A stretch of DNA of 64,000 bases from Nocardia amamiensis NBRC 102102. Lineage in GTDB: Bacteria; Actinomycetota; Actinomycetes; Mycobacteriales; Mycobacteriaceae. Of this stretch, positions 8,501 through 64,000 are shown one piece after another. Below the pieces are notes generated by a model that was given only the letters and a program-made list of their open reading frames with translations, was not told the origin of the DNA and did not search any database. Each line of letters opens with the position of its first letter. The stretch's first letter is position 1. The DNA lies in contig NZ_BDBA01000018.1 in assembly GCF_001612745.1 (NCBI RefSeq), forward strand, positions 1 to 64,000. The letters are read 5' to 3'. The translations under genes were made by a program, and so were the position numbers.

Positions 8501-11500
8501 CGCGCAGCGATGAGGCGCCCACGGCATAGAGCGACACTCCTTCCCATGAGAACGGCACCGATACCTCGGCGCTGTCGTCGGCGGGCGGTGCGCCCAGGGC
8601 AATGGCGTGCAGCGCCGCGTCCAGCAGGGCGGGATGCAGCCCGAAGCGCTCCGCCGCCGACCGTGCCTGTTCGGGCAGATCGACCTCGGCGAACAGGTCT
8701 TCCCCGAGCCGCCACAGTGCGGTCAGCCCGCGGAACAGCGGTCCGTACCGGTAGCCGCGCTCCGCCAGATCCCGGTACCCTTCCACGAGGTCGACCGGTT
8801 CCGCTCCTTGCGGCGGCCAGGTGGTGAGTTCGCCTGCGCCAGAATGTCTTTCAGTATCCTCGATCGGTGCTACGAGACCGGTCGCATGGCAGGTCCAATC
8901 GGCGCCGCCGCCGGGTTCGGCCTGCGGGCGGGAGTACACCGTGAGCGACCGTTCGCCGGTGTCGTCCGGCTCTCTCGCCACGATCCGCAATTCGACGCCG
9001 CCCGCCGCCGGAATCGGCAGCGGCGCCTGCAACACCAACTCCGCCAGCCGCGGGCAGTCCACCAGAGTGCCCACGTGCAGGGCCAATTCGACGAAGGCCG
9101 TGCCCGGCAGCAGTACCGTGCCGCCGATATCGTGGTCGGCCAGCCACGGGTGACTGCGCAGCGACAGCAGGCCGCTGCACACGACCTCCGCCGAGTCCGG
9201 CAGTCGCACGACCGCGCCGAGCAGCGGATGTCCGGCATCCTCCAGACCGGACTGCCGCACGTCGGCGGACCCGCCCGGCTCCAACCAGAAACGCCGGTGC
9301 TGGAACGGATAGGTCGGCAGTTCGACCGCCCTGGCCCCGCTGCCAGCAAACACTTCGGCCCAATTCACCTGCGCCCCAGCGCAATATCCCGCAGCCAGCG
9401 CGCCCATCAGCGCCACCGGCTCCCGATCCGTGCCGGGGGTGCGCAGCAGTGGGCCCGTGGTCGGCCGGGCCGGGCCGGTCGCGGCGGCCTGCTGCATCAA
9501 AGTGGTCAGAGCCGCGCCGGGGCCGGCCTCCCACGCCACGGTGACCTGTTCCGGACCTAGTAGCCGCTGCGCCGCAGCGAAGAACCGCACGGGCTGGCGC
9601 ACCTGGCTCGACCAGTAAGCGGGCGAACGCAATTCGTCGTCACTCGCGGGTTGCCCAGTGACGGTCGAGACGATCGGGATCGCCGGACGATGATAGGTCA
9701 GGCCCGCGCAGACCCGTTCGAACTCGGCCAGCATCGGATCCATGCGAGGCGAATGGAAGGCGTGGCTGACGATCAACCGCTTCGTCTTCGCACCGCTCGC
9801 CGCCAGGATCGCGGCGATCTCGTCTACGGCATCCTCGTCACCCGAAAGTACCAGCGACCGTGGCCCGTTCACCGCGGCGATACCGACGCGATCGGCGCGG
9901 TCGGCGACGAACTCGGCGACCTCGGCCTCATCGGCGGTGACCGAGACCATGGTGCCGCCTTCCGGCAGCGCCTGCATCAACCGCGCCCGCGCCGAGACCA
10001 GCGTGCACGCGTCCGACAGCGACCACACCCCGGCCACATAGGCTGCGGCGATCTCGCCGATGGAGTGGCCCACGAGGTGATCCGGGGTCACGCCCCAGGA
10101 TTGCAGCAGCCGGAACAGCGCGACGCTGATGGTGAACAGGGCGGGCTGGGTGTATTCGGTGCGATCCAGCAGCGCCGCCTGCGCAGTGCCGGGCGCGGCG
10201 AAGATCACCTCACGCAGGCGCACCGGCCAGTCCCGGTTGGTGGTGTCGAACTGCTCGCAGACCTCGTCGAACCGTTCGGCGACCACCGGATAGGCCCGGT
10301 AGAGACGGGCGCCCATGCCGGGCCGCTGTGCGCCCTGGCCCGGGAACATGACCGCGGAGCGGACGTCGCGCCCGGCGGCGCCGCGCACCACAGCAACCGA
10401 GTCCTGCTGTGCCGCCAAGGATTCCACGGCACCCAGTAGTTCAGCGCGATCGCTGCCGAGCAGGACGGCACGCTGCTCGAATTCCGCCCGGGTGACGGCC
10501 AGGGCATAGCCGATGTCACCGGCATCAGCATCCGGTTCGTCCTTCAGGCGGGCGAGCAGCCGTTCGGCTTGCGCCACCACCGCCGCGTCGGTGCGGGCCG
10601 ACAGCACCCACGGCGTCACGGGAAGCGAAACCTTCGGCGGCACAGCGGTTTCCGGCGTGATCGCGGGCGGCTCCTCGATGATCAGGTGCGCGTTGGTGCC
10701 GCTGATGCCGAACGACGACACCCCCGCCCGGCGCGGTCGGTCGCGCCGCGGCCACGGTCGCGCCCGCGTCAGCAGGCGCACACTGTCGGCCCAGTCGACG
10801 TGTTCGGTGGGCCGGTCCACGTTCAGCGTGCGCGGCAGCGTGTCATGCCGCAGCGCCAGCACCGTCTTGATGATCGCGGCGACGCCGGCCGCCGCCTGCG
10901 TATGGCCCAGATTCGATTTGACCGACCCCAGCCACAGCGGGCCGCCGCGGCGCGCCCGCCCGTAGGTGGACAGCAGCGCCTGCACCTCGATGGGATCGCC
11001 GAGCACCGTTCCGGTGCCGTGTCCTTCGACCATATCCACATCGGTGCCGGAGATTCCGGCATCGGCGAGTGCGGCGCGCACCACCCGCTCCTGCGCCGGG
11101 CCGTGCGGCGCGGCCAGGCCGTTGGAGGCGCCGTCCTGATTGACCGCCGAGCCCCGGACCAGTGCGTGGATGCGTCGGCCGTGGCGGAGCGCGCGCGAGA
11201 GCGGCTCCAGCACCAGCACGCCGACGCCCTCCGACCAGACGGTGCCGTCCGCGTCGGCGCCGTAGGGTTTGCACCGGCCGTCCGGGGCGAGACCGCGCTG
11301 CATGCTGAACGCGAGGAACGGCTGCGGCCGCGACATCACCGTGACACCACCGGCGAGGGCCATATCGCATTCGCCGCGCCGCAGCGCCTGCGCGGCCAGG
11401 TGCACGGTGACCAGCGACGACGAGCACGCGGTATCGATGGTCAGCGCCGGTCCCTCCAGCCCCAGCGTGTAGGACACCCGGCCAGAGGCCACACTGCCCG

Positions 11501-12293
11501 TCGTTCCGGTCATCAGATGGCCCACCAGCTCCGGTGGCACGTTCTCGCCGGCGTAGTCGTGGTAGAACAGGCCGGTGTAGACGCCGGTCGCGCTGCCGTG
11601 CATCGACGTGGGGTCGATCCCGGCGTGTTCCAGCGCTTCCCACGACACCTCCAGCAGCAACCGCTGCTGCGGGTCCGTCGCCACCGCCTCGCGGGGGGAG
11701 ATTCCGAAGAATTCGGCATCGAACTCCGCGGCGCCGTCGAGAAATCCGCCGGTACGCACATAGGACTTGCCGAGCGTGCCCGGTTCCGGATCGAATACGT
11801 CCGGCCAGCCGCGGTCGGCCGGGAACTCCGACAGCACCGCCCGTTCCTCGGCGAGTACCTGCCACAGATCCTCGGGTCCGGCGATGCCGCCCGGATACCG
11901 GCAGGCCATGCCGACGATCGCGATCGGTTCCTCCGATCCGGTGCCCGGCGGCCCGGCGGCGCCGTCCGCGACGGGTCCGCCGTCGATCAGTCGCGCCCGC
12001 AACAGTTCCGCGAGCCGGTCGACGGTCGGATAGTCGAAGGTCACCGCCGCCGTCAATGCGATGCCGGTGACCGCACCCAGTCGGTCGCGCAGTTCGACGG
12101 CCGACCGCGAGTCGAAACCGAGGTCGCCGAAGGAAGCCGTGACATCGATGACGTCCGGGCCTGCGGCGCCGAGCACGGCCGCGACCTCTCGGACGATCAG
12201 CTCGCGCAGCAGGCGTCGCTGGTCGCCGGGTGACCGGCGGCCCAGCTCGTCCCGCATATCGCCTGCGCCGTGCCCGCCATTCGCCTCTGGCAT
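5541..12293 (-). CDS. Type I PKS, ACP-KS-AT-DH-ER-KR-ACP
   Basis: A 2,250-residue polyketide synthase with a full reducing loop. Order: ACP1 (Ser in [11 protein letters not shown] near 61), KS (DTACSSS Cys near 288; His motifs near 424 and 463), AT (GHSIGE near 743; HAFH near 846, predicting malonyl-CoA), DH ([10 protein letters not shown] near 1050, [11 protein letters not shown] near 1223), ER ([11 protein letters not shown] near 1641), KR (TGGTGGLG near 1824; LDD signature near 1911, B-type; Tyr in GQANYAAAN near 1968) and ACP2 (LGFDSLG near 2133). No thioesterase is attached. The start at 12293 has GAGGAG seven bases upstream. One reducing module with malonyl specificity resembles iterative Pks15/1-type enzymes that make saturated phenylalkyl chains; iteration here is inference. 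ACP1 probably belongs to the KS-AT protein at 13705. Confidence 0.93.
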
Positions 12294-12400
12294 TGCGATC
12301 TCCTCGAATGTCGTTGCGCTGCATGCCGAATGGTCTTCGTCGACCGGTTCGAGCGTAAGGAGGCGCCGGTCTGCGACCGTCCACCGTGCGGTAATCGCCG

Positions 12401-13702
12401 TTACCGCTGCGCTCCGGCGAGCAGCTGTTCGGCGGCGCCGGCCCCGGATCGGACGCACGCCTCGAGCGACGTGCCCAGCAGGTAGTCACCCGCCAGTGCC
12501 AGGCCGGCGGCGACCGGAACCTCGTGGTTCAGCCTGCCCACGAATTCGCCGTGGAATGGCAGGTAGGCGCAATACGCCCCGGGCCACCGCCATACGGCCG
12601 CCCGCCGCCGCACGACCGCCTCGATCCCGAGTTGGGCGATGGTGCGCTCCTCGGCGCGCGCCAGCCACGTCCGCAGCGCGGCCGGGGACGGTACCGGCCG
12701 GGCGGCGCGACCGGTGAATGTGTAGCGGACGAGCTCGCGCCGGTCGGCTCCGTAGGGGGCGACGGTGCGGCACGGCCCGTCGTCGAAGGTCAGCGAAGCG
12801 ATGCCGGGGGCGAAAATCGGGCGCCGGTACTCGGCCAGCACCACGGTGGCGGGCAGGTACCGGATCTGGCCGAGCAGTTTGCCCAGTGCCGGGAAACCGT
12901 CGGAAACCAGGCCTGCGGCAATCGGCGCCGGGGTGGCCAGCAACACCGCGTCGTACGAGTATTCCCGTGGCGGACCGCCATTCTCGGCGAGTTCGAGGCC
13001 GTGTACGCGTTCGCGGCGGACCATGAGCCGGTGTGCGGCGGTGCGCCGCCGCAGCGTCACCCGCCGCGACAGCGCCGCGATCACCGGCTGCAACCCGTCG
13101 GTCAGCTGGTCGAAATCGTCCAGCACAGTGGCAAGGGTGGCACCGAAGGCGCCGAGATACATCTCGTCCGGTTCGGCGCCGTGGGTCCACACCGTCATCG
13201 GGCGCAGCGCGGTTTCGGTCACTGTGGCGCCGAAGTGCTGGCTGAGCGGTTTGTGGTCGCTGAGCGCGGCGAGCTTGGTGTAGTAACCCGATGGCAGCAG
13301 CCCGCCGGTGTCGCGTGCCTGGCGCGCCAGGTAGGCGAACTTGGCGATATCGGGTGGCGCTGCGCCCATGCGGAACAGATAGCGCAGTGCGGCGGGACCG
13401 TCGCGGTGGTCGACGACGACCGTTGTGTCGTCGGTGCAGCGCAACGGCAGAGTCGCGAACGGTTCGAGCGCGAACGGCCCCAGCGCGGTGAGGAATTCGC
13501 GGAACGCCGTGTATTTGCGCCCGATGAGCCGCCCGCCCGCCATGACCGGTCGCCCGCCGAGCCGGCTGACGCCGCAGCGCCCCCCGGCCTCGCTCTCGCG
13601 TTCGATGAGGTCCACGCGGTGGCCGGCCCGCTGCAGGTGGTAGGCGGCCGCCAGTCCGGACACGCCCGCGCCGACGACGGCGATATGCAGACCGGCCGCC
13701 AC
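12401..13702 (-). CDS. FAD-dependent amine oxidase/desaturase-like oxidoreductase
   Basis: A 433-residue flavoprotein with an N-terminal Rossmann FAD site ([15 protein letters not shown], then [11 protein letters not shown]) and a C-terminal FAD-contacting [16 protein letters not shown] segment. This arrangement is typical of protoporphyrinogen-oxidase/amine-oxidase/carotenoid-desaturase-like enzymes. It begins with GTG two bases after the KS-AT stop, so it is translated in the same operon. It physically separates the KS-AT protein from the PKS that carries the missing ACP. It may oxidise or desaturate the polyketide or the aromatic ring; the exact reaction cannot be read from sequence. Confidence 0.8.
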
Positions 13703-13704
13703 GG

Positions 13705-16188
13705 CTATCCGCCGAGCCAGTAGGCGCGGTGTTGGAAGGCGTAGGTCGGCAGCTCGATCCGCCGCGCTCCGGCTGTGCGGTACAGAGCGCCCCAGTCCAC
13801 CGGGGTGCCTGCCGCGTGAGCGCGGGCCAGAGCGGTGGCGAAGGCGACGGTCTCACCGGGTGGCGCACCGTCGCCGGGGGTGTCGAGGACACCCGTGGTG
13901 ACGACGTCCGTGTCGGCCGCGGTGGCGGCGGCCACGAGGTCGCGTACTCCGGCGGCCGACGCGCCGGAACCGAGCTCGACGATGATGGTGCCGCCCTGCC
14001 GCGCCGCCCAGCCGACGCCGTCGCGCACCGACGCGCTCGCGTGCGTGGCCCAGTAGTCGGGCGCGCGCAGCAGGTTCACGTCGGCGCGCTCCCCCGTCGC
14101 GCTCGATATCAGCGGCGTCCCCGGTTCCCGGGGAGCGAGTCCGGTGGAAATCCGCTGTCGATCGGAGGAGCTTTCCGCACGGACCAATCCGGCCGCGTCA
14201 CGCAACGACCAGGCGCCGGCGACGTGTGCGGCGGCGATCTCACCGGTCGCTTCTCCGAGCACGTAATCCGGCCGGAGACCGAATGATTCGAGTAGCCGGT
14301 ACAGCGCCACCTCGTTGGCGAACGATGCGATACGCACGGCCTCGGACCCGGCGGGAGCAGTGTCCAACAGCGTCTGCGGCGGGCACCCGAAAATCTCGCA
14401 GATTTTGTCGAACGCCGCACGGAATACTGGGAAGTCGCCGTACAGGCCGCGGCCCGCACCGGGTGGCAGGGCGGCTTCCCCCGGGAACAACACCACGGTT
14501 TTCGCCACCGGTGAGGACTGCCCCCGGACGACGGCCGGGGTGGCGCGCCCGGCTTCGAGTGCTTCCAGACCGGCCACCAGATCGTCGTGCTTGCGGCCGA
14601 TCACCAGTGCTCGGTGCGCCATCCGGGTCCGCGTCACCGCCAGCGAGATACCGACATCGCTCGGATGCGGCGGGGTATCCCTGGCGAGGAACGCCGTCAG
14701 CCGCCGGGCCTGGCCGGACACGGCTCGTGCCGAACGGGCCGACACCACCCACACCTGCACGGGCGGATCCTGGCGTTCGGCATACGCTACTGCTCGTGGC
14801 GGAGCCTCTTCCAGGATGACGTGGGCGTTGGTGCCGGTGATCCCGAAGGACGACACCGCGGCGCGGCGCGGGCGCCCGGTCTGCGGCCATGGCTGTGCTT
14901 CGGTCACCAGGCGGATATGCCCCGCCGCCCAGTCGACGTGTCCGGTGGGCTCGTCCACATGCAGGGTGGGCGGCACGATACCGTGCCGCATCGCCAGCAC
15001 CATCTTGATCATGCCGGCCACGCCTGCGGCAGCGAGGCTGTGCCCCATATTGGATTTGATCGACCCCAGCAGCAGCGGCTGCTCGCGACCGCGGCCGTAG
15101 GTGTCCAGCAGGGCGTTCGCCTCGATCGGATCACCCAGGACCGTGCCCGTCCCGTGCCCCTCCACCACCTCGACGTCGCGGCTGGACACTCGAGCGGCGG
15201 CCAGCGCGGACTCGATCACCCGCCGCTGCGCGGCACCGCTGGGCGCGGTGAACCCGTTGGACGCACCGTCCTGGTTGACCGCGGTGCCGCGTACCAGCGC
15301 CAGGATCGGGTGTCCGTTGCGCTGCGCGTCCGAAAGCCGTTCCAGCAGAAGTACTCCCACGCCCTCCGACCAGCCGGTGCCGTCGGCGGCGGCCGCATAG
15401 GATTTGCACCGGCCGTCCGGCGCCATCCCGCGGTCGGTGCCCGAGGCGAACAGGTCGGGTGTCGCCATCACCGTCACACCGGCCGTCATCGCGAGGTCGG
15501 ACTCGCCGGATCGCAGCGAACCGACCGCTTGATGCAGCGCCACCAGCGACGACGAGCAGGCCGTGTCCACGGTCAGCGCGGGACCTTCCAGCCCGAACGC
15601 GTACGAGATGCGCCCCGATGCCGCGGCCGCGGACATTCCGGTCATGAGGAATCCGGTGAGCCCGGCGAGTTGCTCCGCGGTCAAAGTGCGATACGACCCG
15701 TCGACCATCCCGTAGGAATTGCCGAACATCCCGACGAACACCCCGGTCCGGCTGCCGCGCACGGTCTCAGCATCGATGCCCGCCCGCTCGAACGCCTCCC
15801 AGGTCACCTCGAGCAGCTGGCGTTGCTGCGGATCCATCGCCATTGCCTCGCGCGGGCTGATACCGAAGAATCGTGCGTCGAAATCGCCTGCGCCATCGAT
15901 GAATCCGCCCTGCTCGACATAGGTGACCCGATCCGGATCCAGCTCGGCCAGTTCCTCGGCGCGCCAGCCGCGGCCGGACGGGAACCCCGAGATGACATCG
16001 CGTCCTTCGGAGACCATCTGCCAGAGGTCGTCGGGCGAGTCGACGCCGCCGGGATACCGGCAGCCCATCCCGATGATCGCCACCGGCTCGGCGGCACGGG
16101 ATTCCCACCGCAGCAGCCGCTTTCGTGCGGTCTGCAACTCCCGTGCCGCGGTCCGCAGATACGACCGCAGCTGCTGTTCGTCCGCCAT
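13705..16188 (-). CDS. PKS KS-AT protein with degenerate, truncated AT
   Basis: An 827-residue PKS protein with an N-terminal coiled-coil docking element (about 5-30, LRSYLRTAARELQTARKRLL) and an apparently intact KS (DTACSSS Cys near 210, EGHGTG His near 344, KSNMGH His near 381). The AT is abnormal: the nucleophile motif GHSxGE reads GEATGE near 643, replacing both His and Ser, and the stretch that normally holds the HAFH-type motif is missing, so the domain is about 100 residues short. No ACP follows. The downstream PKS begins with an extra ACP that could complete this module. It probably acts as an AT-less condensing module, or as a chain-transfer KS between the Dar ACP and the reducing PKS. 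Confidence 0.9.
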   Translation of the reverse strand: MADEQQLRSYLRTAARELQTARKRLLRWESRAAEPVAIIGMGCRYPGGVDSPDDLWQMVSEGRDVISGFPSGRGWRAEELAELDPDRVTYVEQGGFIDGAGDFDARFFGISPREAMAMDPQQRQLLEVTWEAFERAGIDAETVRGSRTGVFVGMFGNSYGMVDGSYRTLTAEQLAGLTGFLMTGMSAAAASGRISYAFGLEGPALTVDTACSSSLVALHQAVGSLRSGESDLAMTAGVTVMATPDLFASGTDRGMAPDGRCKSYAAAADGTGWSEGVGVLLLERLSDAQRNGHPILALVRGTAVNQDGASNGFTAPSGAAQRRVIESALAAARVSSRDVEVVEGHGTGTVLGDPIEANALLDTYGRGREQPLLLGSIKSNMGHSLAAAGVAGMIKMVLAMRHGIVPPTLHVDEPTGHVDWAAGHIRLVTEAQPWPQTGRPRRAAVSSFGITGTNAHVILEEAPPRAVAYAERQDPPVQVWVVSARSARAVSGQARRLTAFLARDTPPHPSDVGISLAVTRTRMAHRALVIGRKHDDLVAGLEALEAGRATPAVVRGQSSPVAKTVVLFPGEAALPPGAGRGLYGDFPVFRAAFDKICEIFGCPPQTLLDTAPAGSEAVRIASFANEVALYRLLESFGLRPDYVLGEATGEIAAAHVAGAWSLRDAAGLVRAESSSDRQRISTGLAPREPGTPLISSATGERADVNLLRAPDYWATHASASVRDGVGWAARQGGTIIVELGSGASAAGVRDLVAAATAADTDVVTTGVLDTPGDGAPPGETVAFATALARAHAAGTPVDWGALYRTAGARRIELPTYAFQHRAYWLGG

Positions 16189-16191
16189 TGC

Positions 16192-17334
16192 TCAGGCCGC
16201 CGCGTCGACCGCCGTCAAATGCATGAACGACACGATAAAGCGGCCGGATTCGGGCACCATGCACAGCAGCGTGTCGCCCTTGCTGATCAAACCCTCGCGC
16301 AGCATCTCGTCCAAGATGAGATAGATGCTGGCGCTGCCGATATTGCCCACCCGGGTAAGGTTGCTGTACCACCCCTCCAGCCGTCCCGGATCGATGCCGC
16401 GGCGCTTGAACTCGCCGAGCAGCAGTTCCTTCATCCGCTCACTGGAGTAATGCACCGGGAACCACGTCACCCGTGCCGGATCGAATTTGCCCGCGGCGAT
16501 CAGCCGCTGATATTCGGTGATGCCGACCTCGACCAGGTGCGGAAGCAGGGACAGCTTCTGCCGTGGAGCCAGTGCACCGTCGCGCACCGCCTCGGTGGCG
16601 GTCGGATAATCGCCCCAGGTCTTGGCGCAGTCATTGGCGTTGCTGCCGAAGAACATGCACGCCTGTTCGGTATTGGCGTAGGAGGTCAGCGTGATCCAGT
16701 CGATGCGCAGGCTGATTCCCGCCGCATTCGGCCGGTCCGTCAGCACCGCGGCGCCGGCGCCGTCGGAAAGCATGTAGCGCAGGAACGCCGTCTCCATCGG
16801 CAGCGAACCATCCTCCACCACCGATTGCATCTCGGCGTAGCGGGAACTCTTGAAACCGCGAGAGGCGAATTCGCTGGCCACCACCACGGCATTGCGCTTC
16901 TCGCCTGCCACGACCTGAAGGTAGGCGTCCTTCAACGCCATCATTCCCGAACTGCAGATGCCGTGTGCGGTCATGACTTCCATCGGTGCGTAACCCAATT
17001 CGCCGTGGATCATGCTGGCGTGCCCGGGCCCGAGCAGGTCCGGAATAGTGGTCGCGGCGGCGAGCATCTCGACATCGTCGGGACCGAGCCCGGCGCGTCC
17101 GACCGCCTCTCGGACGGCGGCCGCGGCCATCTGCGTATTCGAGAACACCGTCTGCTGGTTCTTGTCGATCGCGTAATGGCGGGTCTTGATACCGCTGTTG
17201 GTGAGGATCATCTCGCGCAGATCAGCCGATGCCAGACCGGCTCGGCCGATGTAGTCCTCGATCTCCTCGTTCGGCACCGGTTCGCCCGGTAGGAAGCGTC
17301 CGGTCGCGGTGATGTAGGCGCCCATCTCGTTCAC
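16192..17334 (-). CDS. DarB-like KAS III ketosynthase
   Basis: A ketosynthase III-fold condensing enzyme of 380 residues. Its segments ILTNSGIKTRHYAID, LLGPGHASMIHGELG, FLRYMLSDGAGA, VGNIGSASIYLILDE and VPESGRF match the dialkylresorcinol-forming DarB group rather than FabH. The catalytic triad looks complete: Cys in AHGICSSG, His in FPVHYSSERM and Asn in GNIGSAS. GTG 17334 overlaps the stop of the ACP gene by four bases (GTGA); an alternative ATG is at 17325. Known DarB enzymes condense two beta-ketoacyl thioesters before ring closure. Here it is coupled to a dedicated ACP and faces a DarA-like gene, so a resorcinol product is likely. Confidence 0.85.
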   Translation of the reverse strand: MNEMGAYITATGRFLPGEPVPNEEIEDYIGRAGLASADLREMILTNSGIKTRHYAIDKNQQTVFSNTQMAAAAVREAVGRAGLGPDDVEMLAAATTIPDLLGPGHASMIHGELGYAPMEVMTAHGICSSGMMALKDAYLQVVAGEKRNAVVVASEFASRGFKSSRYAEMQSVVEDGSLPMETAFLRYMLSDGAGAAVLTDRPNAAGISLRIDWITLTSYANTEQACMFFGSNANDCAKTWGDYPTATEAVRDGALAPRQKLSLLPHLVEVGITEYQRLIAAGKFDPARVTWFPVHYSSERMKELLLGEFKRRGIDPGRLEGWYSNLTRVGNIGSASIYLILDEMLREGLISKGDTLLCMVPESGRFIVSFMHLTAVDAAA

Positions 17335-54660: not shown

Positions 54661-55923
54661 ATGACCTACTCCGCGTTGGACCTGTCCGCTGGTTCGTCCG
54701 ACCCGGCGCTGGAGATCGCCGGACAGCCGGCTTCGGTGCCGCTCCAGAACACCGACCGCGTCGCCTCCCGCATGGTCGGATACCTGGAGAACAACATGGC
54801 CCCCTGCCGGACGCTGCCCGGCGAGCACTTACGCGGAGACGTCACCAAACTCACCCGAAGCTGTCTCAGCCTGGCCGCCGAGATGCTCGACCGGCGCGCC
54901 GTGCCGAACGACGAACAGCTCGGCGCGGTGCGCGCGGCCGCGACCCGCTGGGCCCGCGAGGGCGTGCCGCTCAGCACCATCCTGCGCGCCTACCACGAGG
55001 GGCTGCGCATCGCGCTCGGCCTGGTCACCGCGCGAGCCGAAGCGGATGACGTGGGCGAGGTGCTGATCGCCACCGACCTCATCCTCGAACTCCTGGAGGC
55101 GATCACCGCGGCGGTGTCGGACGCCTACGTCGAGGAGCAGCACCTGGTCGCCAAGGAACACCAGACGGCCGCGCAGACCCTCGCCTCGGCACTGCTCAGC
55201 GGTCGCGGCAGCTCGGCACTGGCACGGCAGACCGGCATTCCGATCACGGAGTCCTATCAGGTTGTCGCGCTGTCGATTCCGGAGCACCCGGACGAGCGCG
55301 ATCCGCGCGTCGACGGCAATGTCGCCGCGCGCCGCAAGCTGCGCAGGCTGCAGTCGGAGCTGGCCACCGTGTTCGCCTCACGCGCGCTCGCGCTACTCAG
55401 CATCAAGGGCGGCACCCTGCTCATCCCGCTCGGCGACGAGGCCGACAGCGCCCTCACCGACGCGACGCTCGACCTGCTGGCCATCGCGGCCGAGGTCCCG
55501 CTCACCGCGACGGTGGTGGCCAGCGAGACCGATCGGATACCGGAATCCGCCGATCAGGCCCACGAGCTGCTCAATCTGGTCCGCGTCGGCGACAGACCGC
55601 CCGGTCTCTATCAAATGTCGGATCTGGCCGTCGAATACCAGCTCACCCGCGGCGGCCCGGCGACCCGGCGGATCGCGACCATCCTCGATCCGCTCGACGC
55701 CCATCCCGAACTGTTCGACACCATGCGCGCGTACCTCGGCAACGACATGAACCGCCAGCTCACTGCACGCCAGCTCTACGTGCACCCGAACACCGTCGAC
55801 TACCGGCTGCGGCGCATCGCCCAGCTGACCTCGATCGACCTGGCGACCTCGGCGGGCATCTCGCAGGCGGCGATCGCGCTGCTGGCGCGCGACCTCGACC
55901 GCAGCGTCGCCCGGCGCCTCTGA
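54661..55923 (+). CDS. PucR/CdaR-family regulator with C-terminal HTH
   Basis: A full-length 420-residue paralogue of the regulator at 1504: sensor region (MVGYLENNMAPCRTLPGEHL, AAATRWAREGVPLSTILRAY), central ARRKLRRLQSEL core, LYQMSDLAVEYQLTRGGPA linker and the C-terminal PucR HTH (MNRQLTARQLYVHPNTVDYR). Start ATG 54661 has no strong Shine-Dalgarno but is the only one preserving the N-terminal similarity. The gene stands alone between the XRE zone and a CBS-protein gene. Ligand unknown. Confidence 0.87.
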   Translation: MTYSALDLSAGSSDPALEIAGQPASVPLQNTDRVASRMVGYLENNMAPCRTLPGEHLRGDVTKLTRSCLSLAAEMLDRRAVPNDEQLGAVRAAATRWAREGVPLSTILRAYHEGLRIALGLVTARAEADDVGEVLIATDLILELLEAITAAVSDAYVEEQHLVAKEHQTAAQTLASALLSGRGSSALARQTGIPITESYQVVALSIPEHPDERDPRVDGNVAARRKLRRLQSELATVFASRALALLSIKGGTLLIPLGDEADSALTDATLDLLAIAAEVPLTATVVASETDRIPESADQAHELLNLVRVGDRPPGLYQMSDLAVEYQLTRGGPATRRIATILDPLDAHPELFDTMRAYLGNDMNRQLTARQLYVHPNTVDYRLRRIAQLTSIDLATSAGISQAAIALLARDLDRSVARRL

Positions 55924-56906: not shown

Positions 56907-56997
56907 GAAAGCCGTTGTCCACGACAAAACTTCGTAGTCCGTACCAAAAATGCGTATCGTGGGTGGCGTCCGAGCAGCCGATGAAGGGAGCGTCACG

Positions 56998-58281
56998 TTG
57001 CGGTCCCCTGCCTCGAGATCGCCGATCGCGCAGGCGGAGGCTCCCCGGCTATCGGCAGCATCGGCCCCTGCCGCGGTGCGGTCGCTGTTCCCCGCGCTCG
57101 CCGACGCCACCGAGGTCTACCTCGACAGCGCGGCGACAACACAGAAACCGCTGCCGGTCATCGAGACTATCCACCGCTATCACAGCGGCGGCACCGCCAA
57201 TGTGGGACGCGGCACCTACCCGTGGGCCACCGGCCTCACCGCGCGGATCGCCCGCGTCCGGGAGCGCGCCGCCGCCTTCATCGGCGCCGAGCATCCGGAC
57301 GAGGTGGTCTTCACCGGCGGAGCCACCGCGGCGGTGAACGCCGTCGCACTGTCCTGGGGCTTGGCCGCGCTCGCCGACGGCGACGAAATCCTTTACAACC
57401 CTACTGATCATGCCTCGAACGTGTATCCGTGGCTGCATCTGCGGGGGCTGCTCGCCCGATTCGGGCGCCGCATCGAGCTGATCCCCTACCGGGTGACCGG
57501 TGCCGGTGAGGCGGACACCGACGACATCCTGGCCAGGATCACGCCGCGGACCCGGCTGATCACGACCAGCCATCTGCACCACGTTTTCGGCGGGCTGAGC
57601 ACGTTGGAGGAACTGCGCGGGCGCATCGACCCCGCCGTCCTGCTGTGCTTCGACTGCTCGCAGAGCGGCGGGCATCTCCCGGTCGACGTGACCGCGCTCG
57701 GCGCGGATTTCGCGATCTTCGCCGCGCACAAGATGTTCGGCGCGCCAGGCACCGGAATCCTCTACTGCCGCAGGCGCGTGCACGACCGCCTCGTGCCGTT
57801 CCTGCCCGGCGGCAACTCCGGCGTGCGGCCGGACGCGACCGGACTCACCGCGGGCACGATGCCCGAACTCCTGGAGGGCGGCACCCCCAATATCCCCGGC
57901 ATCCTGGCGCTCGGCAGCGCGCTGGAGGTGCTGGAGTCCTTCGGCGTCGGCGCCATCGCGGTGCACAACCGCGCCCTGACCCTGCGCCTGATCGACGGAT
58001 TGCGGCCGGTCCCCGGCGTCGAGTTCCTGCCAGGACCCGCGCATGCGGCGTGCGCGGTGGGCTACGGCATCGTCTCGTTCACACTGGACGGGATCTCGGC
58101 GACCGACCTGGGATTCGTGTTGAGCGAGCTGGGTTTCCTGGTGCGCACCGGCGCGCACTGCGTCCCCGCCGTGCACGACGGCGCGGGCTCGGTGCGGGTC
58201 AGCACGCACATCTACAACACGCCCGACGAGATCGACCGGTTCGTCGCGTGCGTGCAGTCCGTCGCCGAGGAGGTCACGTGA
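56998..58281 (+). CDS. Class V aminotransferase, SufS/cysteine desulfurase-like
   Basis: A PLP enzyme of about 427 residues with VYLDSAATTQKPLPVIETIH near the N-terminus, TSHLHHVFGGLSTLEEL, the PLP-binding Lys in FAAHKMFGAPGTGIL (near 243) and the SufS-type loop Cys in RTGAHCVPAV (near 387). Both residues needed for cysteine desulfuration are present. TTG 56998 has AAGGGAG upstream; ATG 56950 without a Shine-Dalgarno is the alternative. It heads a coupled four-gene operon with a CysK-rhodanese fusion, so sulfur transfer for a specialised product is more likely than housekeeping Fe-S assembly (no SUF genes nearby). Confidence 0.85.
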   Translation: MRSPASRSPIAQAEAPRLSAASAPAAVRSLFPALADATEVYLDSAATTQKPLPVIETIHRYHSGGTANVGRGTYPWATGLTARIARVRERAAAFIGAEHPDEVVFTGGATAAVNAVALSWGLAALADGDEILYNPTDHASNVYPWLHLRGLLARFGRRIELIPYRVTGAGEADTDDILARITPRTRLITTSHLHHVFGGLSTLEELRGRIDPAVLLCFDCSQSGGHLPVDVTALGADFAIFAAHKMFGAPGTGILYCRRRVHDRLVPFLPGGNSGVRPDATGLTAGTMPELLEGGTPNIPGILALGSALEVLESFGVGAIAVHNRALTLRLIDGLRPVPGVEFLPGPAHAACAVGYGIVSFTLDGISATDLGFVLSELGFLVRTGAHCVPAVHDGAGSVRVSTHIYNTPDEIDRFVACVQSVAEEVT

Positions 58282-59582
58282 ACACCGACACCCTGAGCTA
58301 CGACCGGAGGGCCGCGTCCCGGGTGCTGGCCGAGCTGGCGCAGCCGGGGCTGTTCACCGCGGCGACGCCGCCTCCAGCGACTGACGCGGTATGGTCGCCG
58401 CGTCGTTTCGAGTTCACTTGCGCCGCATTACGTCCGGAGCCGGGAAGCAATCTCACCTATTCACAGCGACTGTATCTGGAGCGGTTCATGCGGCCGTGCC
58501 GCGCGGATCAGGTGACCAGCGCCACGCACCGCATCGCCTGGACCGACAGCGACGGCATCCCGAATACGGGACATTTCCGCGCCGACGGACTCGGCCCCTT
58601 GGTGCCGATCGCGATGCGCGAGACGGTTCTGGCACTGTGGCACGAGCTGGACGCGAATCCCGGTTTCGCCCAGCGTGTCTCGACGCTCGGACCACGGGAG
58701 AACGCGGTGCTGGCGGGCACCACCACCGATCACGATCCGCGCGACATATTCCGGGTCGGCGTCGAATCCGCTGGGCGCACGCTCGCCCAGCACGCGCTGG
58801 TGGCCGGGCAGACCCCATATCGCGATCCCGCCGAATTCGCCCGAGCCATACGCGATTCCGGCTTGTTCGCCGCGGTCGCCACCCGCTGGTACTGGGAGTT
58901 GCAGGCGTCGACCTATCGGCGCGGCATGATTCCGGTCGGCCTTGTCGTGCAGACCGACGGCACCCTCCGCTACTCGGCGGAGACGGTGGCGACGCTGCGC
59001 GCGATGAAGGACGCCACCATCGCCGACGCGCACGCCGTCATGCACCGCGCCACCACCGCCGAGGGCCTCACGGTCGCGGAGGCGATCGCCAAGTACCACG
59101 ACGATCTCGACCTGATCTCCCGGCAGTACGCGCTGCTGCCCGCCGGGAACCACCCCGCTTGCCTGGCGGCCATGCCGCATCAGCTCGACAGCGGGCATTA
59201 CAGCATTCTCCCGGCGCTGGTCGACCGGTTCGTCACCGTGTTCACCGAGACCGTCGAACGCTGCGAGGTCATCGAGGTGAGGGCCGAACTCGACGAGGCG
59301 ACCGCCGACCGCGCCGCCACCGCCGAGGACCAGGTGTTCTACGTGCCCGACATGACCTGCAAGCATTGCGTCCGCACCATCGGCGGCGTGCTGGAATCGA
59401 TGGACATCCGCGTGCTCGACATCGATCTGGACAGCAAACGGGTGGTCGCGGAGTTCCGTAGCCCGCGCAACCGGGCCAGGGCGTTCGAGGCGATCCGGGA
59501 CGGCGGCTACAACCCGGTCGCAGAGCAGCCGGACGCCGCCGCGCGGGCCGCGGCCACCGAACCATCGGAAGCCGCGGTATGA
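58278..59582 (+). CDS. Unknown protein with C-terminal heavy-metal-associated domain
   Basis: A 434-residue two-part protein. The large N-terminal part (about 1-340) matches no family I recognise; it is mostly helical with scattered His, Glu and Tyr (for example HRIAWTDSDGIPNTGHF and RWYWELQASTYRRGM), so an iron enzyme is possible. The C-terminal part (about 350-415) is an HMA domain: VFYVPDMTCKHCVRTIGGVL with the metal-binding CxxC near 360-363, then VVAEFRSPRNRARAFEAIRD. GTG 58278 overlaps the previous stop (GTGA). Metal delivery or metal-dependent catalysis is inferred from the HMA part only. Confidence 0.75.
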   Translation: MNTDTLSYDRRAASRVLAELAQPGLFTAATPPPATDAVWSPRRFEFTCAALRPEPGSNLTYSQRLYLERFMRPCRADQVTSATHRIAWTDSDGIPNTGHFRADGLGPLVPIAMRETVLALWHELDANPGFAQRVSTLGPRENAVLAGTTTDHDPRDIFRVGVESAGRTLAQHALVAGQTPYRDPAEFARAIRDSGLFAAVATRWYWELQASTYRRGMIPVGLVVQTDGTLRYSAETVATLRAMKDATIADAHAVMHRATTAEGLTVAEAIAKYHDDLDLISRQYALLPAGNHPACLAAMPHQLDSGHYSILPALVDRFVTVFTETVERCEVIEVRAELDEATADRAATAEDQVFYVPDMTCKHCVRTIGGVLESMDIRVLDIDLDSKRVVAEFRSPRNRARAFEAIRDGGYNPVAEQPDAAARAAATEPSEAAV

Positions 59583-61081
59583 CGGGATGGCCCCCGGCGC
59601 TACCGGCGAAGCTGCATCCGCTGGTACGCGCCTTCCTCGACACGCCAGGCGCCGTGGCCGGAACGCTCGACCGGTTCGGCTCTCCGGCGCACCTGGTGTT
59701 CCCTCAGGTCTACTCGGACAATCTCGCCGACTTGCGCGCCGTACTGGAGCGCGGGCTGCTGCGGCACCGAATCTGCTACGCGCACAAAGTGAATCAGTCC
59801 CGCGCGTTCGTGCGCACCGCGGAGTGCGCCGGCATCGCCATCGACGTGGCCTCACCGTTCGAACTCGCCGGCGCACTCGACGCCGGGTTCGATCCGGCGC
59901 GCATCGAGGTCACCGGCCCGAAGGGCCAATCCTTTCTGCGGGATATCACCGGCCGCGGCGTGACCGTCAACGTGGACAACCTATGGGAACTGGGCCGGAT
60001 CGCCGAACTGGCCGACGATGGCACGAAAGTTCCTGTGCTGCTTCGCGTCTCCGGGTTCGAAGCCGGACAGGTGAGCCGGTTCGGCGTGCCGCTCGCGCAG
60101 CTGGGGCAGGCGTTCGACCTGTTGTCGGCGCATCGTGGGCGGCTGGCGTTCCTCGGCTTCGCTTTTCACCTCGACTCCGGCGATCTCGGCGAGCGGGTTC
60201 GCGCGATCGACGCCTGCCTCCGCGCGATCGAACAGGCCTACGAGCGCGGGCTGGCGCCGTCGGTGCTCGACATCGGCGGTGGATTCCGTCAAGTGTTCAC
60301 CGCCGACGCCGAGCGGTTCGACGCCTACGTACTCGCATTGCGCGACTCGCTGCTCGGCCGGGGCGAGTCGATGAGCTGGGGCAGCAATACCTTCGGCTAT
60401 CACGTCGCGGGCGGCGCTGTGCACGGCACGCCGGTGTTCCACAAGTACGCCAACACCATCCCGGCCGCACGCATGCTCGACGACCTGCTGGCCGCGCCGT
60501 TGGATCGGCACGCAGGGCGGACGGTAGCGCAGGTGGCGGGCGACAACCTGCTGGAGGTGTGGCTGGAGCCGGGCAAGGCGCTGGTCGACCACGCGGGCGT
60601 CACGGTGGCCACGGTCGAGTTCGTCAAGGAGGTCGCCGACGGCAGCGTCCTGGTGCACGTCGATCTCAGTCGCGATTCGGTGACGCCCGCGGATCAAGAA
60701 GTCATGGTCGATCCGCTCCTGCTGCCGACCGACGCCGCCGATTTCCGCCGCGGACCGGTCGGGGTGTACCTGGCCGGACGGCTGTGCTTGGAACGAGACC
60801 TGATCACCAATCACAAAGTGTGGCTGCAGGCCGAGCCCCGGCCCGGTGATGCGATCGTGTTCCCGAATACGGCCGCCTACCATATGGATTTGTCCGCGGC
60901 CACGGCATCGATGCATCCACTGCCTGCGAAACTCGCCGTCACCCGGAACACCGACGGCTTCCAGGTCGTCCCCGACGCGGACTACGAACCCGGCGTACGC
61001 GTCGAACCGACGCGGCCCCACCAGTCCGTGCCACCCGAACACCGCCCCACCAGGCCGGTCCGATCCGTCGAGGCTTCCTGA
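59579..61081 (+). CDS. Y4yA/DAP-decarboxylase-like PLP enzyme
   Basis: A fold-type III PLP enzyme of 500 residues. PLP Lys70 lies in ICYAHKVNQS; LGFAFHLDSGDLGERV and VLDIGGGFRQVF match the substrate and phosphate loops of diaminopimelate/ornithine decarboxylases; LLEVWLEPGKALVDHAGVTV matches the C-terminal barrel. It most resembles the Y4yA family found in specialised-metabolite and rhizobial plasmid loci. ATG 59579 overlaps the HMA gene (ATGA). It probably decarboxylates an amino acid or amino-acid conjugate formed by the adjacent PLP enzymes. Confidence 0.85.
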   Translation: MTGWPPALPAKLHPLVRAFLDTPGAVAGTLDRFGSPAHLVFPQVYSDNLADLRAVLERGLLRHRICYAHKVNQSRAFVRTAECAGIAIDVASPFELAGALDAGFDPARIEVTGPKGQSFLRDITGRGVTVNVDNLWELGRIAELADDGTKVPVLLRVSGFEAGQVSRFGVPLAQLGQAFDLLSAHRGRLAFLGFAFHLDSGDLGERVRAIDACLRAIEQAYERGLAPSVLDIGGGFRQVFTADAERFDAYVLALRDSLLGRGESMSWGSNTFGYHVAGGAVHGTPVFHKYANTIPAARMLDDLLAAPLDRHAGRTVAQVAGDNLLEVWLEPGKALVDHAGVTVATVEFVKEVADGSVLVHVDLSRDSVTPADQEVMVDPLLLPTDAADFRRGPVGVYLAGRLCLERDLITNHKVWLQAEPRPGDAIVFPNTAAYHMDLSAATASMHPLPAKLAVTRNTDGFQVVPDADYEPGVRVEPTRPHQSVPPEHRPTRPVRSVEAS

Positions 61082-62406
61082 TGCGCTACGACCACATCAC
61101 CGAACTCATCGGCAACACACCCTTGCTCCGGCTCGATCCGGCGGTGCACGGGCTGGCGAACGTCGAGCTCTACGCGAAGCTGGAGTCGCACAACCCGTTC
61201 GGCTCGGTCAAGGACCGGGTGGCCTGGGGGATGCTCCGCGACGACCTGGACGAGATCCGCGCGAGCGGGCAGACGCTCATCGAGGCCTCCAGCGGCAACA
61301 CCGCCAAAGCGCTGCGCGTTCTCGGTGCGGTGCACGGCATCGGCCTGCGCGCGGTGACCAATCGGATCAAGGTGGCCGAGGTCCGTGACCTGCTCGAGCT
61401 GTTCGGCACCGAGATCGTGGAACTGCCCGGACTCTCCGAATGCCCGGACCCGACCACACCGAACGACGTCTACTCGGTGATCGAGTCGACCATGGCGCAG
61501 CGGCCCGGCGCGTACCGCCATCTGTCGCAGTACACCAACGAGAAGAACGTCGAGGCGCATTACCAGGGCACCGGACGGGAGATCCACGAGGACCTCGCGA
61601 CCGATGGCATCACCAGGATCGACTACCTGATCGGCGGGCTCGGCACCACCGGCTCCACCCGCGGCACCGCCACCTATCTGCGCAAGCACAATCCCGAATT
61701 GCGGACCGTCGCGGTGGTCTCCGAACGGTCGGACTTCATTCCCGGTATCCGGTCGGAGAGCGAGATGTGGGATGTCGGACTGTTCCAGCCCGATTTCTAC
61801 GACTCGATCGTCACCATTGCCGCACGCGACGCCGTGGACGCCACACTGCGGCTGGCGACCGGGTACGGTGTGCTGGCCGGGCCGACCAGCGGCGCGAGCT
61901 ACGCCGCGGCCTTGGAAATGCTTGGTGCGCTGGATCTTTCGGCAGTGGACCCGGACGATCCGATCGTCGCGGTGTTCATCGTCTGTGACCGGCTGGAGCC
62001 GTATCTGTCCTACGTCAAGAAGCGCAGGCCGGAGCTGTTCGGCCGCGCCGAACGCGAGGCGGAGCCGACCGCGCAGGAACTGGCCGCGACACCGGTCCTG
62101 ACCCCCGCGCAGCTCGCCGAGCTGGACCGGACCGGCCGCCCGACCATCGTGGACACCCGTGGCGCGATGGCCTACCGCATCGGCCATGTCCCCGGCGCGC
62201 TCAACATCCGCGACGACCAGCTCGACGACATGTTCGGTCACGGCATCCCGTTTCCACGGTCGCGCCCGGTGGTTTTCGCCTGTCCCGTCGGCGAGCTGTC
62301 GCTGCGGTTCGCCGCGCGGGCCCGGCGGGCCGGATACGACGCCGCCAGCCTGGCGGGCGGTGTGGTCGCGTGGCGCGACGCGGGACTGCCCTTGGAGCGC
62401 GGCTGA
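61081..62406 (+). CDS. Cysteine-synthase-like PLP enzyme fused to a rhodanese domain
   Basis: A 441-residue fusion. Residues about 1-320 form a CysK/CBS-type beta-replacing enzyme: ELIGNTPLLRL, PLP Lys44 in FGSVKDRVAW, substrate loop EASSGNTAKAL, phosphate loop GGLGTTGSTRGTAT. Residues about 345-440 form a rhodanese domain (IVDTRGAMAYRIGHVPGALN) whose active Cys is kept in VFACPVGELS (near 400) while the usual Arg of the loop is missing. The start overlaps the preceding stop by one base (TGATG). It could make a sulfur-containing or 2,3-diaminopropionate-like amino acid, with persulfide supplied through the rhodanese part. Confidence 0.85.
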   Translation: MRYDHITELIGNTPLLRLDPAVHGLANVELYAKLESHNPFGSVKDRVAWGMLRDDLDEIRASGQTLIEASSGNTAKALRVLGAVHGIGLRAVTNRIKVAEVRDLLELFGTEIVELPGLSECPDPTTPNDVYSVIESTMAQRPGAYRHLSQYTNEKNVEAHYQGTGREIHEDLATDGITRIDYLIGGLGTTGSTRGTATYLRKHNPELRTVAVVSERSDFIPGIRSESEMWDVGLFQPDFYDSIVTIAARDAVDATLRLATGYGVLAGPTSGASYAAALEMLGALDLSAVDPDDPIVAVFIVCDRLEPYLSYVKKRRPELFGRAEREAEPTAQELAATPVLTPAQLAELDRTGRPTIVDTRGAMAYRIGHVPGALNIRDDQLDDMFGHGIPFPRSRPVVFACPVGELSLRFAARARRAGYDAASLAGGVVAWRDAGLPLERG

Positions 62407-62428
62407 CCTTCGGGAGGCCGCTGGGCTG

Positions 62429-63934
62429 CTACCCCACCGCGAACGGGCGCGTGGCGTGACCCAGTAGTGGAGCGAGCGGACCGCGGTAGCCGGAAGCGAA
62501 CAGTTCGACTGTGGCCGTGAACAATTCGACGAATGCCGCCGCGGTACCGCGCTCGAACAGCGCGGTCGGATAGATGAAAACGCCGTCGATGCCCGCGGGC
62601 GCGCCCACCCGGTCGTAGCGGTCCACCAGGCCGAACTCGAGATCGTGCTTGGCGCGGATCACGCCGGTGTCGATCTCGGTGACGGTCAGTTCGCCGCCGG
62701 CGCCTGCCGGCTGGGCGGCCGCACCGCGCTGGAGGATGAGGGTCGCCTGGAACAGCGGGCAGGTCGCGTCTTGCAGCAAACAGCGTTTCAACCGCTGATT
62801 CGGGGTGTCGGGGTGGGCGAACGCGGCAAGCGCCACCCTGCGCACCTGGTCGAGCAGTTCGTCTACGTCGGCGGCGCGGTCGAGACGCACACGCAGCAGT
62901 ACATCGTCGGCGAAGTTGCCGACCAGGTCGTCCAGCAGGCGATGATCGCGGCCGGCCACGGCGGTGGCCACCGTGACGTCGTCGCTGCCGGAGAACGCGC
63001 CGACCGCCACCGCGAACGCTGCTTGCAGCACCATGAACAGGCTGGCTCGCGCTTCGCGCGCTCGCTCGAGCAACGCCCGGTGCGCGTCGGGGCCGAACGC
63101 CACCGGCGCGGTTGCCCCGGCGCCCGCCCTGCCCGTCCTTCGGGCCGGACGCGGGCGATCGCACGGGAACTCGAGCACCGCGGGCCGACCGGCCAGCGTG
63201 TTGGCCCAGTAGCGCAGCTGTTGGGTGGCACGACTCCATTCGTCCGCATAGTCGCCGAGCTGGGCGTGTTTCCACAGGGTGTAGTCGACGTAGTCGATCG
63301 GCAACGGCGTCCAAGCCGGTGCGGCGCCCGCCGCCCTGGCGAGATATGCGGTGACGAGGTCGCGCAACAATGGGGCCACCGAACGGCCGTCGATCGAGAT
63401 GTGGTGCACGACCAGAACCAGCACGATGTCGTGCGGACCGAGCACGCACAACTGTGCCCGCAGGGGAAGGCCGGCGGCCAGGTCGAATTCGCGTGCGGCG
63501 AATGCCGCGATGCGGTATGGCAATTCGGCTTCGGAGACCGCGACGAGTTCGGGCCGCACAAGGGCCTCGGCCGCCGGGACGACCACTTGGGCCGGACCGG
63601 AAGCGGTCTCCGGATAGCGGGTGCGCAGCGGTTCGTGCCGGGCGACGACGTCACCGATCGCCGCGATGAGCGCCTCCGGTCGTAACGCGGGTCCGGACAA
63701 GCGCACCGCGCGTGCCACATTCCAGTCACTCGAGTTACCGGCCCGCGCGGCGTGCCACATCCGTTCCTGCGCCGGCGCAAGCGGCACGTGCGCCGGACGC
63801 GGACCGCGAGCGAGCAGCACGGGAGGCCGTGGCGGCGGAACAAGCCGAACCGCTGGTCGTGCACCGCGGGCCGAGCCGGGCCGCAGGCCCGCGCCGATCG
63901 GCTCGGACAAGATCCCCGCAGTGGAGTTGTTCAC
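62429..63934 (-). CDS. Standalone NRPS condensation-domain protein
   Basis: A 501-residue protein consisting of one condensation domain: VPLAPAQERMWHAARAG (C1-like, near 55), the catalytic VHHISIDGRSVAPLLRDL (HHxxxDG near 176), YTLWKHAQ, and DLVGNFADDVLLRVRLD. No adenylation, thiolation or thioesterase domain is attached. GTG 63934 has GGAGG upstream; the frame is open to 63961. It converges on the PLP operon with 22 bp between. Such free C domains form amide or ester bonds between carrier-bound and free substrates, or act as acyltransferases like PapA. Partners are expected beyond the right edge. Confidence 0.87.
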   Translation of the reverse strand: MNNSTAGILSEPIGAGLRPGSARGARPAVRLVPPPRPPVLLARGPRPAHVPLAPAQERMWHAARAGNSSDWNVARAVRLSGPALRPEALIAAIGDVVARHEPLRTRYPETASGPAQVVVPAAEALVRPELVAVSEAELPYRIAAFAAREFDLAAGLPLRAQLCVLGPHDIVLVLVVHHISIDGRSVAPLLRDLVTAYLARAAGAAPAWTPLPIDYVDYTLWKHAQLGDYADEWSRATQQLRYWANTLAGRPAVLEFPCDRPRPARRTGRAGAGATAPVAFGPDAHRALLERAREARASLFMVLQAAFAVAVGAFSGSDDVTVATAVAGRDHRLLDDLVGNFADDVLLRVRLDRAADVDELLDQVRRVALAAFAHPDTPNQRLKRCLLQDATCPLFQATLILQRGAAAQPAGAGGELTVTEIDTGVIRAKHDLEFGLVDRYDRVGAPAGIDGVFIYPTALFERGTAAAFVELFTATVELFASGYRGPLAPLLGHATRPFAVG

Positions 63935-64000
63935 GCGCCGTTTCCTCCACCACAGAACCACCGATAGATTCGGCGAAGGTAACCGACTCGAGTAAACCTT

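Follow-up and report, generated by a model that had tools for sequence, protein, structure and literature searches.

A tightly coupled operon conserved in Nocardia, tentatively assigned to a small sulfur-bearing molecule, and its sister module in actinobacteria

SbnA and SbnH, enzymes of staphyloferrin B synthesis, act as a CysK-like synthase and a fold-III decarboxylase, and mycobacterial CysM takes its sulfur from a protein carrier, thiocarboxylated CysO. In Sinorhizobium pNGR234a, a Y4yA gene is followed by genes annotated as cysteine-synthase-like, octopine-dehydrogenase-like, IucA/IucC and major facilitator superfamily (MFS). The aminopolycarboxylate metallophore [S,S]-ethylenediaminedisuccinate (EDDS) is under Zur control, according to PMC6103462. 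Here we describe an operon of four genes, A to D, that joins enzymes of these kinds to a SufS-like protein and to a protein with an HMA domain. It lies in the first 64,000 nucleotides, hereafter the window, of contig NZ_BDBA01000018.1 of Nocardia amamiensis NBRC 102102. No description of this core operon, or of the related C-D-A module presented below, was found in the open-licence PubMed Central literature, in which the papers retrieved with 'y4yA' name rhizobia throughout, as judged from their titles or the beginnings of their abstracts.

The operon and its conservation in Nocardia

Gene A (56998..58281, + strand) codes for a SufS-like class-V enzyme dependent on pyridoxal phosphate (PLP) and similar to cysteine desulfurases (PF00266, 284 bits). 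Gene B (58278..59582, +) codes for a protein of 434 residues, in which a domain of approximately 345 residues of no matched family is followed by a C-terminal HMA domain with the sequence MTCKHC. The product of gene C (59579..61081, +) is a Y4yA-like fold-III PLP decarboxylase (PF02784, the N-domain of Orn/DAP decarboxylases), and that of gene D (61081..62406, +) a CysM/CysK/SbnA-like synthase (PF00291, PALP) fused to a rhodanese (PF00581). Genes A and B overlap by four bases (GTGA), B and C also by four (ATGA), and C and D by one. A-B-C-D is thus one tightly coupled operon. Matches to family models confirmed these genes, together with the facing gene E discussed below, where the initial annotation had placed them.

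Against the NCBIfam sufS model, the A protein scores 295.7 bits for a cut-off of 475.1. Its identification as a Family 2A encapsulin cargo desulfurase was rejected (238 bits, NF041166 cut-off 800). Searches of Pfam and NCBIfam with C brought up no Y4yA model, and the assignment comes from tblastn homologues annotated as Y4yA, with 30-36% identity among the matches listed. C matches 98 plasmid records, the best places of which are at <60% identity, and many of the 40 listed carry the Y4yA annotation.

B and D were each found in all 148 Nocardia genomes sampled, and A in 138 of them (E 1e-100). In a set of 99 relatives, B was present in 60 genomes, i.e. all 59 Nocardia, including the genome under study, and one of the 40 others (G089). 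Its distribution was as narrow in the order-wide sample (11/397 genomes, namely ten Nocardia and G089) and in the phylum-wide sample (3/396, all Nocardia). G089 is thus the only genome outside Nocardia with B among the samples searched, and its copy of A-B-C-D is in a fragmentary state (locus L044). B had no match in plasmid records or in PHROGs. In G879, a second, short B-like match was seen away from the operon (contig C15, 42760-42912; 51 model positions, E 8.3e-17).

We fetched 80 loci containing B, all from Nocardia, the nearest named ones being from Nocardia amamiensis (92%) and N. pneumoniae (90%). Eight with too little flanking sequence were dropped. The order and strand of A-B-C-D are preserved in all 72 remaining loci, a degree of preservation far beyond chance, with B, C and D full in 72 and A in 71. 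B is distant from C and D in G021 and G893, yet it is retained there. The initial annotation had made its reading depend on the four genes being conserved together, and they form one conserved operon. Nocardia is a genus of medical importance, and the presence of B and D, for which no product has been assigned, in every one of the 148 genomes points to an unrecognized piece of its physiology.

The HMA domain of B reaches 26.1 bits for a Pfam cut-off of 24.8 and contains the CxxC motif, the cysteines of which, C361 and C364, are invariant in both alignments. The model of this domain matches Atx1 (2xmt) at Z 9.1 and has a CopZ/Atx1-like fold. AlphaFold2 models of the whole protein (predicted local distance difference test, pLDDT, 80.3) and of residues 1-345 (pLDDT 82.9, predicted template modelling score 0.85) were based on shallow alignments of only Nocardia sequences, 35 and 34 of them, respectively. 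In sequence searches, the HMA domain alone was matched, the rest of B giving no match. No structure of the Protein Data Bank matched the N-terminal domain at E 0.001 or better, the best Z being 3.9. No family of heme-oxygenase-like diiron oxidases was found for B in Pfam at E up to 10. Similarly, comparison with the VIA structures gave no Z of at least 5 for this model built on a shallow alignment; the best rows, mostly P450s at Z ≤3.9, are not meaningful.

Upstream of gene A is a conserved box, GAAAnnnGTTGTCCnnGAnAAnnCTTCG (56907..56934, +), a candidate operator or activator site. It is followed by the hexamer TATCGT (56955..56960, +), a candidate promoter -10 element within the conserved sequence TGCGTATCGT, which is the strongest block of a 77-locus consensus aligned on that very hexamer. 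Gene A most likely starts at TTG 56998, as in the initial annotation, since the in-frame ATG upstream at 56950 falls inside this promoter-like element. In 36 of 79 Nocardia loci, the sequence before A fits the left part of the box when this is defined strictly. The 8.24 Mb genome under study holds one exact copy of the box and one further place at three mismatches; a regulon search with it thus gave no further targets to follow.

The sister module, the loss of gene A and Zur-like boxes

Of 394 genomes sampled from the class, 19, belonging to 4 of 137 genera, have homologues of D at E ≤1e-70. We read 18 loci with a non-core D homologue (45-52% identity), and the gene order is C-D-A in every one. 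Two of them come from records named Streptomyces plasmids, and one of the other 16 is a second copy in Nocardia (L180); in L183 and L184 the D match is in two pieces. A related methyltransferase gene comes directly next on the same strand in nine of the 18 loci, approximately 4 kb further along in L181 and on the opposite strand in L180. Other neighbours are found in single loci: MFS and SBP_5/oligo_HPY ATP-binding cassette (ABC) importer parts in L181, an ABC-3 permease in L177, and a CobW GTPase beside S14/L28-type ribosomal paralogues, identified by eye, in L041. Within Nocardia, this sister module, which is devoid of B, is present in 19 of the 148 genomes, with copies 78-100% identical to that of G003. 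Twenty genomes had given two D matches, and G009 was dropped because its single D is split over two contigs. In a tree of D proteins, 12 core sequences group together (96*), as do the 19 sister sequences from Nocardia (100*), which lie next to L181; the outgroup is attached by long branches and its position is unsafe.

We compared the catalytic residues in 62 proteins (26 core, 19 Nocardia sister and 17 others). Lys44 of the PALP domain and Cys401 of the rhodanese are conserved in all 62 D proteins, as are the lysine, cysteine and histidine positions of C. As for A, the PLP lysine and the cysteine at the catalytic position are both found in 36/36 C-D-A proteins and in 17 of the 26 core loci; A is absent or a remnant in the remaining core loci, with an arginine at the Cys position in one remnant. 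In the comparison loci L040, L043 and L200, no match reached the rhodanese Cys and A had no match. The sulfur relay put forward in the initial annotation is supported by the invariance of the rhodanese Cys and by the presence of the A cysteine in every sequence reaching that position bar the one remnant. Conserved residues thus strongly suggest a sulfur relay in the core operon.

The core copy of A is missing from ten genomes, each of which is among the 19 that carry the sister module, whereas it is absent from none of the remaining 129 (Fisher 9.1e-11, uncorrected for kinship). A tree of C and D from 55 genomes, made up of the 19 carriers of the sister module plus 36 of the 129 non-carriers, requires at least six changes to explain the loss of A. 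Remnants of A persist in three of the ten genomes (G038, G012 and G032). When partial A matches in genomes lacking the sister module were reread, A proved to be full in one frame in G901 and cut by the end of the contig in G047, and G028 showed the frame break discussed below. As the core A is absent solely where the A of the sister module is present, we read this pattern as replacement of the former by the latter, with A supplying what both pathways need, most simply sulfur. D, which is kept in all 148 genomes, is not replaced by its sister copy. We therefore regard A as the probable sulfur donor of both systems, in which C and D would give rise to distinct products. The pattern of loss predicts one enzyme serving two pathways.

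Zur-like sites were sought by sequence match to the 15-position motif TGAAAATNATTTTCA, which is in agreement with the motif tGaNNatSatNNtCa published for Streptomyces Zur (PMC5472717). In the sister loci (363,912 bases), a site of at least 12/15 is present in 19 of 19 and one of at least 13/15 in 18 of 19. In the paired core loci from these genomes (366,868 bases; ten of these loci are without A and two also without linked B), the corresponding numbers are 1 and 0 (Fisher 1.1e-9 at ≥13/15). All 17 sister loci with a methyltransferase match have a site ≤100 bases from the start of that gene, as read from the match rows, and several have another one before C. Based on these predicted boxes, the sister module likely has a role in zinc supply. 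It also offers a handle on function, as zinc starvation should induce the sister locus.

A stricter search of the genome under study gave 12 sites, with none in the reversed control and none on contig C18, which carries the window. Eight sites were read. As a positive control, four of them precede NRPS (non-ribosomal peptide synthetase), COG0523-like, ABC-3-like zinc transporter and ribosomal paralogue genes, identified by eye, and the other four are beside genes with no obvious role in zinc homeostasis. Direct Zur control of the core operon was thus rejected. The upstream box of gene A is faintly Zur-box-like, matching at 12 of 15 positions in L065, 11 in L067 and L121 and 8-10 in most other loci. 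In the genome under study (G000), an NRPS gene recognized by eye (contig C8; L201, 5276-10498) starts at a Zur-like box with a single mismatch and lies beside two ABC exporter-like genes, which makes it a candidate Zur-controlled zincophore NRPS. On contig C351 of G000, a methyltransferase-like gene, also recognized by eye (L207, 1943-2831), starts at a two-mismatch box, as in the sister loci.

Proposed pathway, alternatives and neighbouring genes

We propose, with a probability of roughly 40%, that the A-B-C-D operon directs the biosynthesis of a small molecule containing sulfur. Based on family membership and conserved residues, A would draw on cysteine or a comparable donor and capture its sulfur in persulfide form. 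The persulfide would then be handed to Cys401 in the rhodanese of D. The PALP domain of D would convert an activated serine-like amino acid into an aminoacrylate and add the delivered sulfur, or a thiol bearing it, at the beta carbon, yielding a beta-thio amino acid. C might then decarboxylate either this compound or one of its conjugates, giving an amine of the aminoethanethiol type. In the weakest step of the scheme, B could use its CopZ-like domain to bind Cu(I) or Zn(II) and, with the help of its domain of no matched family, either finish the product or load it with metal. The link to metals made in the initial annotation is supported by the CopZ/Atx1-like domain of B and by the Zur-like boxes of the sister loci; for the core operon it is likely, and by analogy with the sister module the product is probably a metal ligand. 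If this is true, such molecules would constitute a new class of sulfur-based metal ligands in bacterial metal acquisition.

Several observations weigh against this proposal. If A drew sulfur from cysteine and D made cysteine, the route would be circular, which implies that the acceptor is not serine or that the donor is not cysteine. A, C and D are all under every specific NCBIfam cut-off listed, and the main domain of B has no known relative. The core operon has no Zur-like box in the 19 loci and no recognized transporter alongside, and outside Nocardia just 4 of 17 C-D-A loci have a Zur-like site of at least 12/15 at any place in the sequence searched. After correction for kinship, support for the linked loss of A is modest, with on average 4.8 independent pairs for and 0 against (median p 0.0625). 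Lastly, G028, which is without the sister module, has a frame break in its core A, whether real or a sequencing error.

A broader reading, which we consider doubtful, holds that C-D-A and A-B-C-D are two branches of an undescribed sulfur-relay family, a 'thio' counterpart of the SbnA/SbnH logic, with a cysteine desulfurase common to both supplying synthases fused to a rhodanese. One would be a zinc-scavenging thiol branch of actinobacteria, with Zur boxes in Nocardia, and the other a nearly Nocardia-only branch whose product is a different one, probably handled with copper through B, a metalloprotein of new fold.

The alternative that survives best, although unlikely, is that the operon handles sulfur and copper inside the cell, producing a thiol cofactor or buffering sulfane sulfur or Cu(I), without a secreted metallophore. 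Such a role would fit the retention of B and D in every Nocardia genome, the CopZ-like domain, and the lack of a recognized transporter or Zur-like box at the core operon. It sits less well with the sister module, which in some loci lies beside metal-uptake-type genes and has Zur-like boxes in Nocardia, and with the occurrence of Y4yA-kind decarboxylases in metallophore-type clusters.

We rank next, as also unlikely, a pathway in which D and C act like SbnA and SbnH: D would couple an amine, rather than sulfur, to an activated serine, and the resulting metallophore would be a diamine or an aminopolycarboxylate. Another step, such as thiolation, would then be served by A and the rhodanese. Elsewhere, pairs of Y4yA and CysK-like genes do cluster with IucA/IucC genes, or with ornithine-cyclodeaminase-like and MATE genes. 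D scores 143.6 bits against the NCBIfam SbnA model; however, this is under the cut-off of 349.95, and D is closer to CysM (173.6 bits). The operon has no SbnB-like or octopine-dehydrogenase-like gene, and the rhodanese Cys, kept in 62 of 62 core and C-D-A proteins, is unmatched in L040, L043 and L200. For the SbnB-like dehydrogenase, the search covered the operon genes with Pfam and NCBIfam and the 12 kb right flank by eye. Highly improbable, finally, is that B is the end enzyme and receives from A, C and D a cofactor containing sulfur or a Cu-S centre: none of the 148 genomes has lost B, which persists in G021 and G893 although it is not linked to C-D there, and B fuses a metal-binding domain to a conserved domain of no known family, but the sister C-D-A stands without B and we know of no precedent for enzymes of the A/C/D types making a cofactor.

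Gene E (62429..63961, - strand), which ends 22 bases past D, codes for a stand-alone condensation domain (PF00668, 174 bits) with an HHxxxDG motif in its translation. Among solved structures, its best relatives are C domains, that of 5u89 at 263 bits and that of the PCP-C didomain 8fx6/7kvw at 188 bits, which we take to be siderophore NRPS domains. The initial annotation had counted it as part of the system, a view that did not hold: E is intact in only 8 of 69 testable Nocardia loci and is in three broken pieces in L060 (13353-14421), consistent with decay. We thus rejected it as a core member and consider it accessory. Some branches have it more often, as in the genomes that carry the sister module, where E stands at 7 of 19 core loci. 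Hypothetically, E might acylate the amine made by the operon in the manner of VibH.

Pfam found no NRPS adenylation or carrier domains in the operon genes, and by eye no NRPS, adenylation or carrier domain, metal transporter or metal regulator was recognized in the 12 kb of right flank to the contig end. This flank, where the initial annotation had suggested looking for an ordinary siderophore NRPS locus, codes for regulators, a repeat-rich protein of 1008 residues, a DNA ligase and other proteins. The 1008-residue protein, with repeats at its C-terminus (L009, 2737-5763), is near the operon in several Nocardia, and contig C46 codes for a protein with a similar start, located at a two-mismatch Zur-like box. 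Elsewhere in the window, positions 5541-17334 hold a modular polyketide synthase (KS, AT, DH, ER-like, KR and PP-binding domains), a second KS protein, and amine-oxidase-like and KAS III-like genes; we saw no link with the operon, and none was looked for specifically. ARAGORN called a tRNA-Ser(GGA) at 54696-54780 on the - strand, inside a PucR-like gene (54661-55923), which is probably a false call.

Comparison with described systems

Two other gene clusters with Y4yA homologues came to light. On contig C41 of the genome under study (L200, 4824-12838), a Y4yA homologue of 33% identity is found with genes for an SBP_5 importer part, TauD, MatE and, identified by eye, an ornithine-cyclodeaminase-like protein. 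This is likely an aminopolycarboxylate-type metallophore cluster, and as it exists in the same genome, the core operon is a separate system beside that type. On pMAH135 of Mycobacterium avium (L043), CysK-like, ornithine-cyclodeaminase-like, Y4yA and MATE genes are near CsoR and a multicopper oxidase, possibly a copper-linked metallophore cluster on a mycobacterial plasmid.

The closest relatives of the core enzymes are those of SbnA/SbnH-type metallophore pathways. Like these and the EDDS-type systems, the core operon pairs a CysK-like synthase with a fold-III decarboxylase. In contrast with them, its synthase is fused to a rhodanese, it includes the SufS-like A and the HMA-bearing B, and it is devoid of an SbnB-like gene, a Zur-like box and a recognized transporter. 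The y4yA pair of Sinorhizobium pNGR234a resembles the core in having the CysK-like gene directly after that of the decarboxylase, but no rhodanese fusion, SufS-like or HMA gene is annotated at that locus. If our proposal is right, the core would share with the fluopsin C pathway of Pseudomonas aeruginosa a small copper ligand as product; the enzymes differ, however, as that pathway uses the heme-oxygenase-like FlcD, no relative of which was found in this analysis. The C-D-A(-methyltransferase) module of Streptomyces and other actinobacteria has three enzymes and their catalytic residues in common with the core, and differs by its gene order, the absence of B and its Zur-like boxes, seen at ≥12/15 in 19 of 19 Nocardia sister loci and in 4 of 17 loci from outside the genus. 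Lastly, D is similar to mycobacterial CysM in that a CysM-like domain would be fed by protein-borne sulfur, the carrier in D being the fused rhodanese rather than thiocarboxylated CysO.

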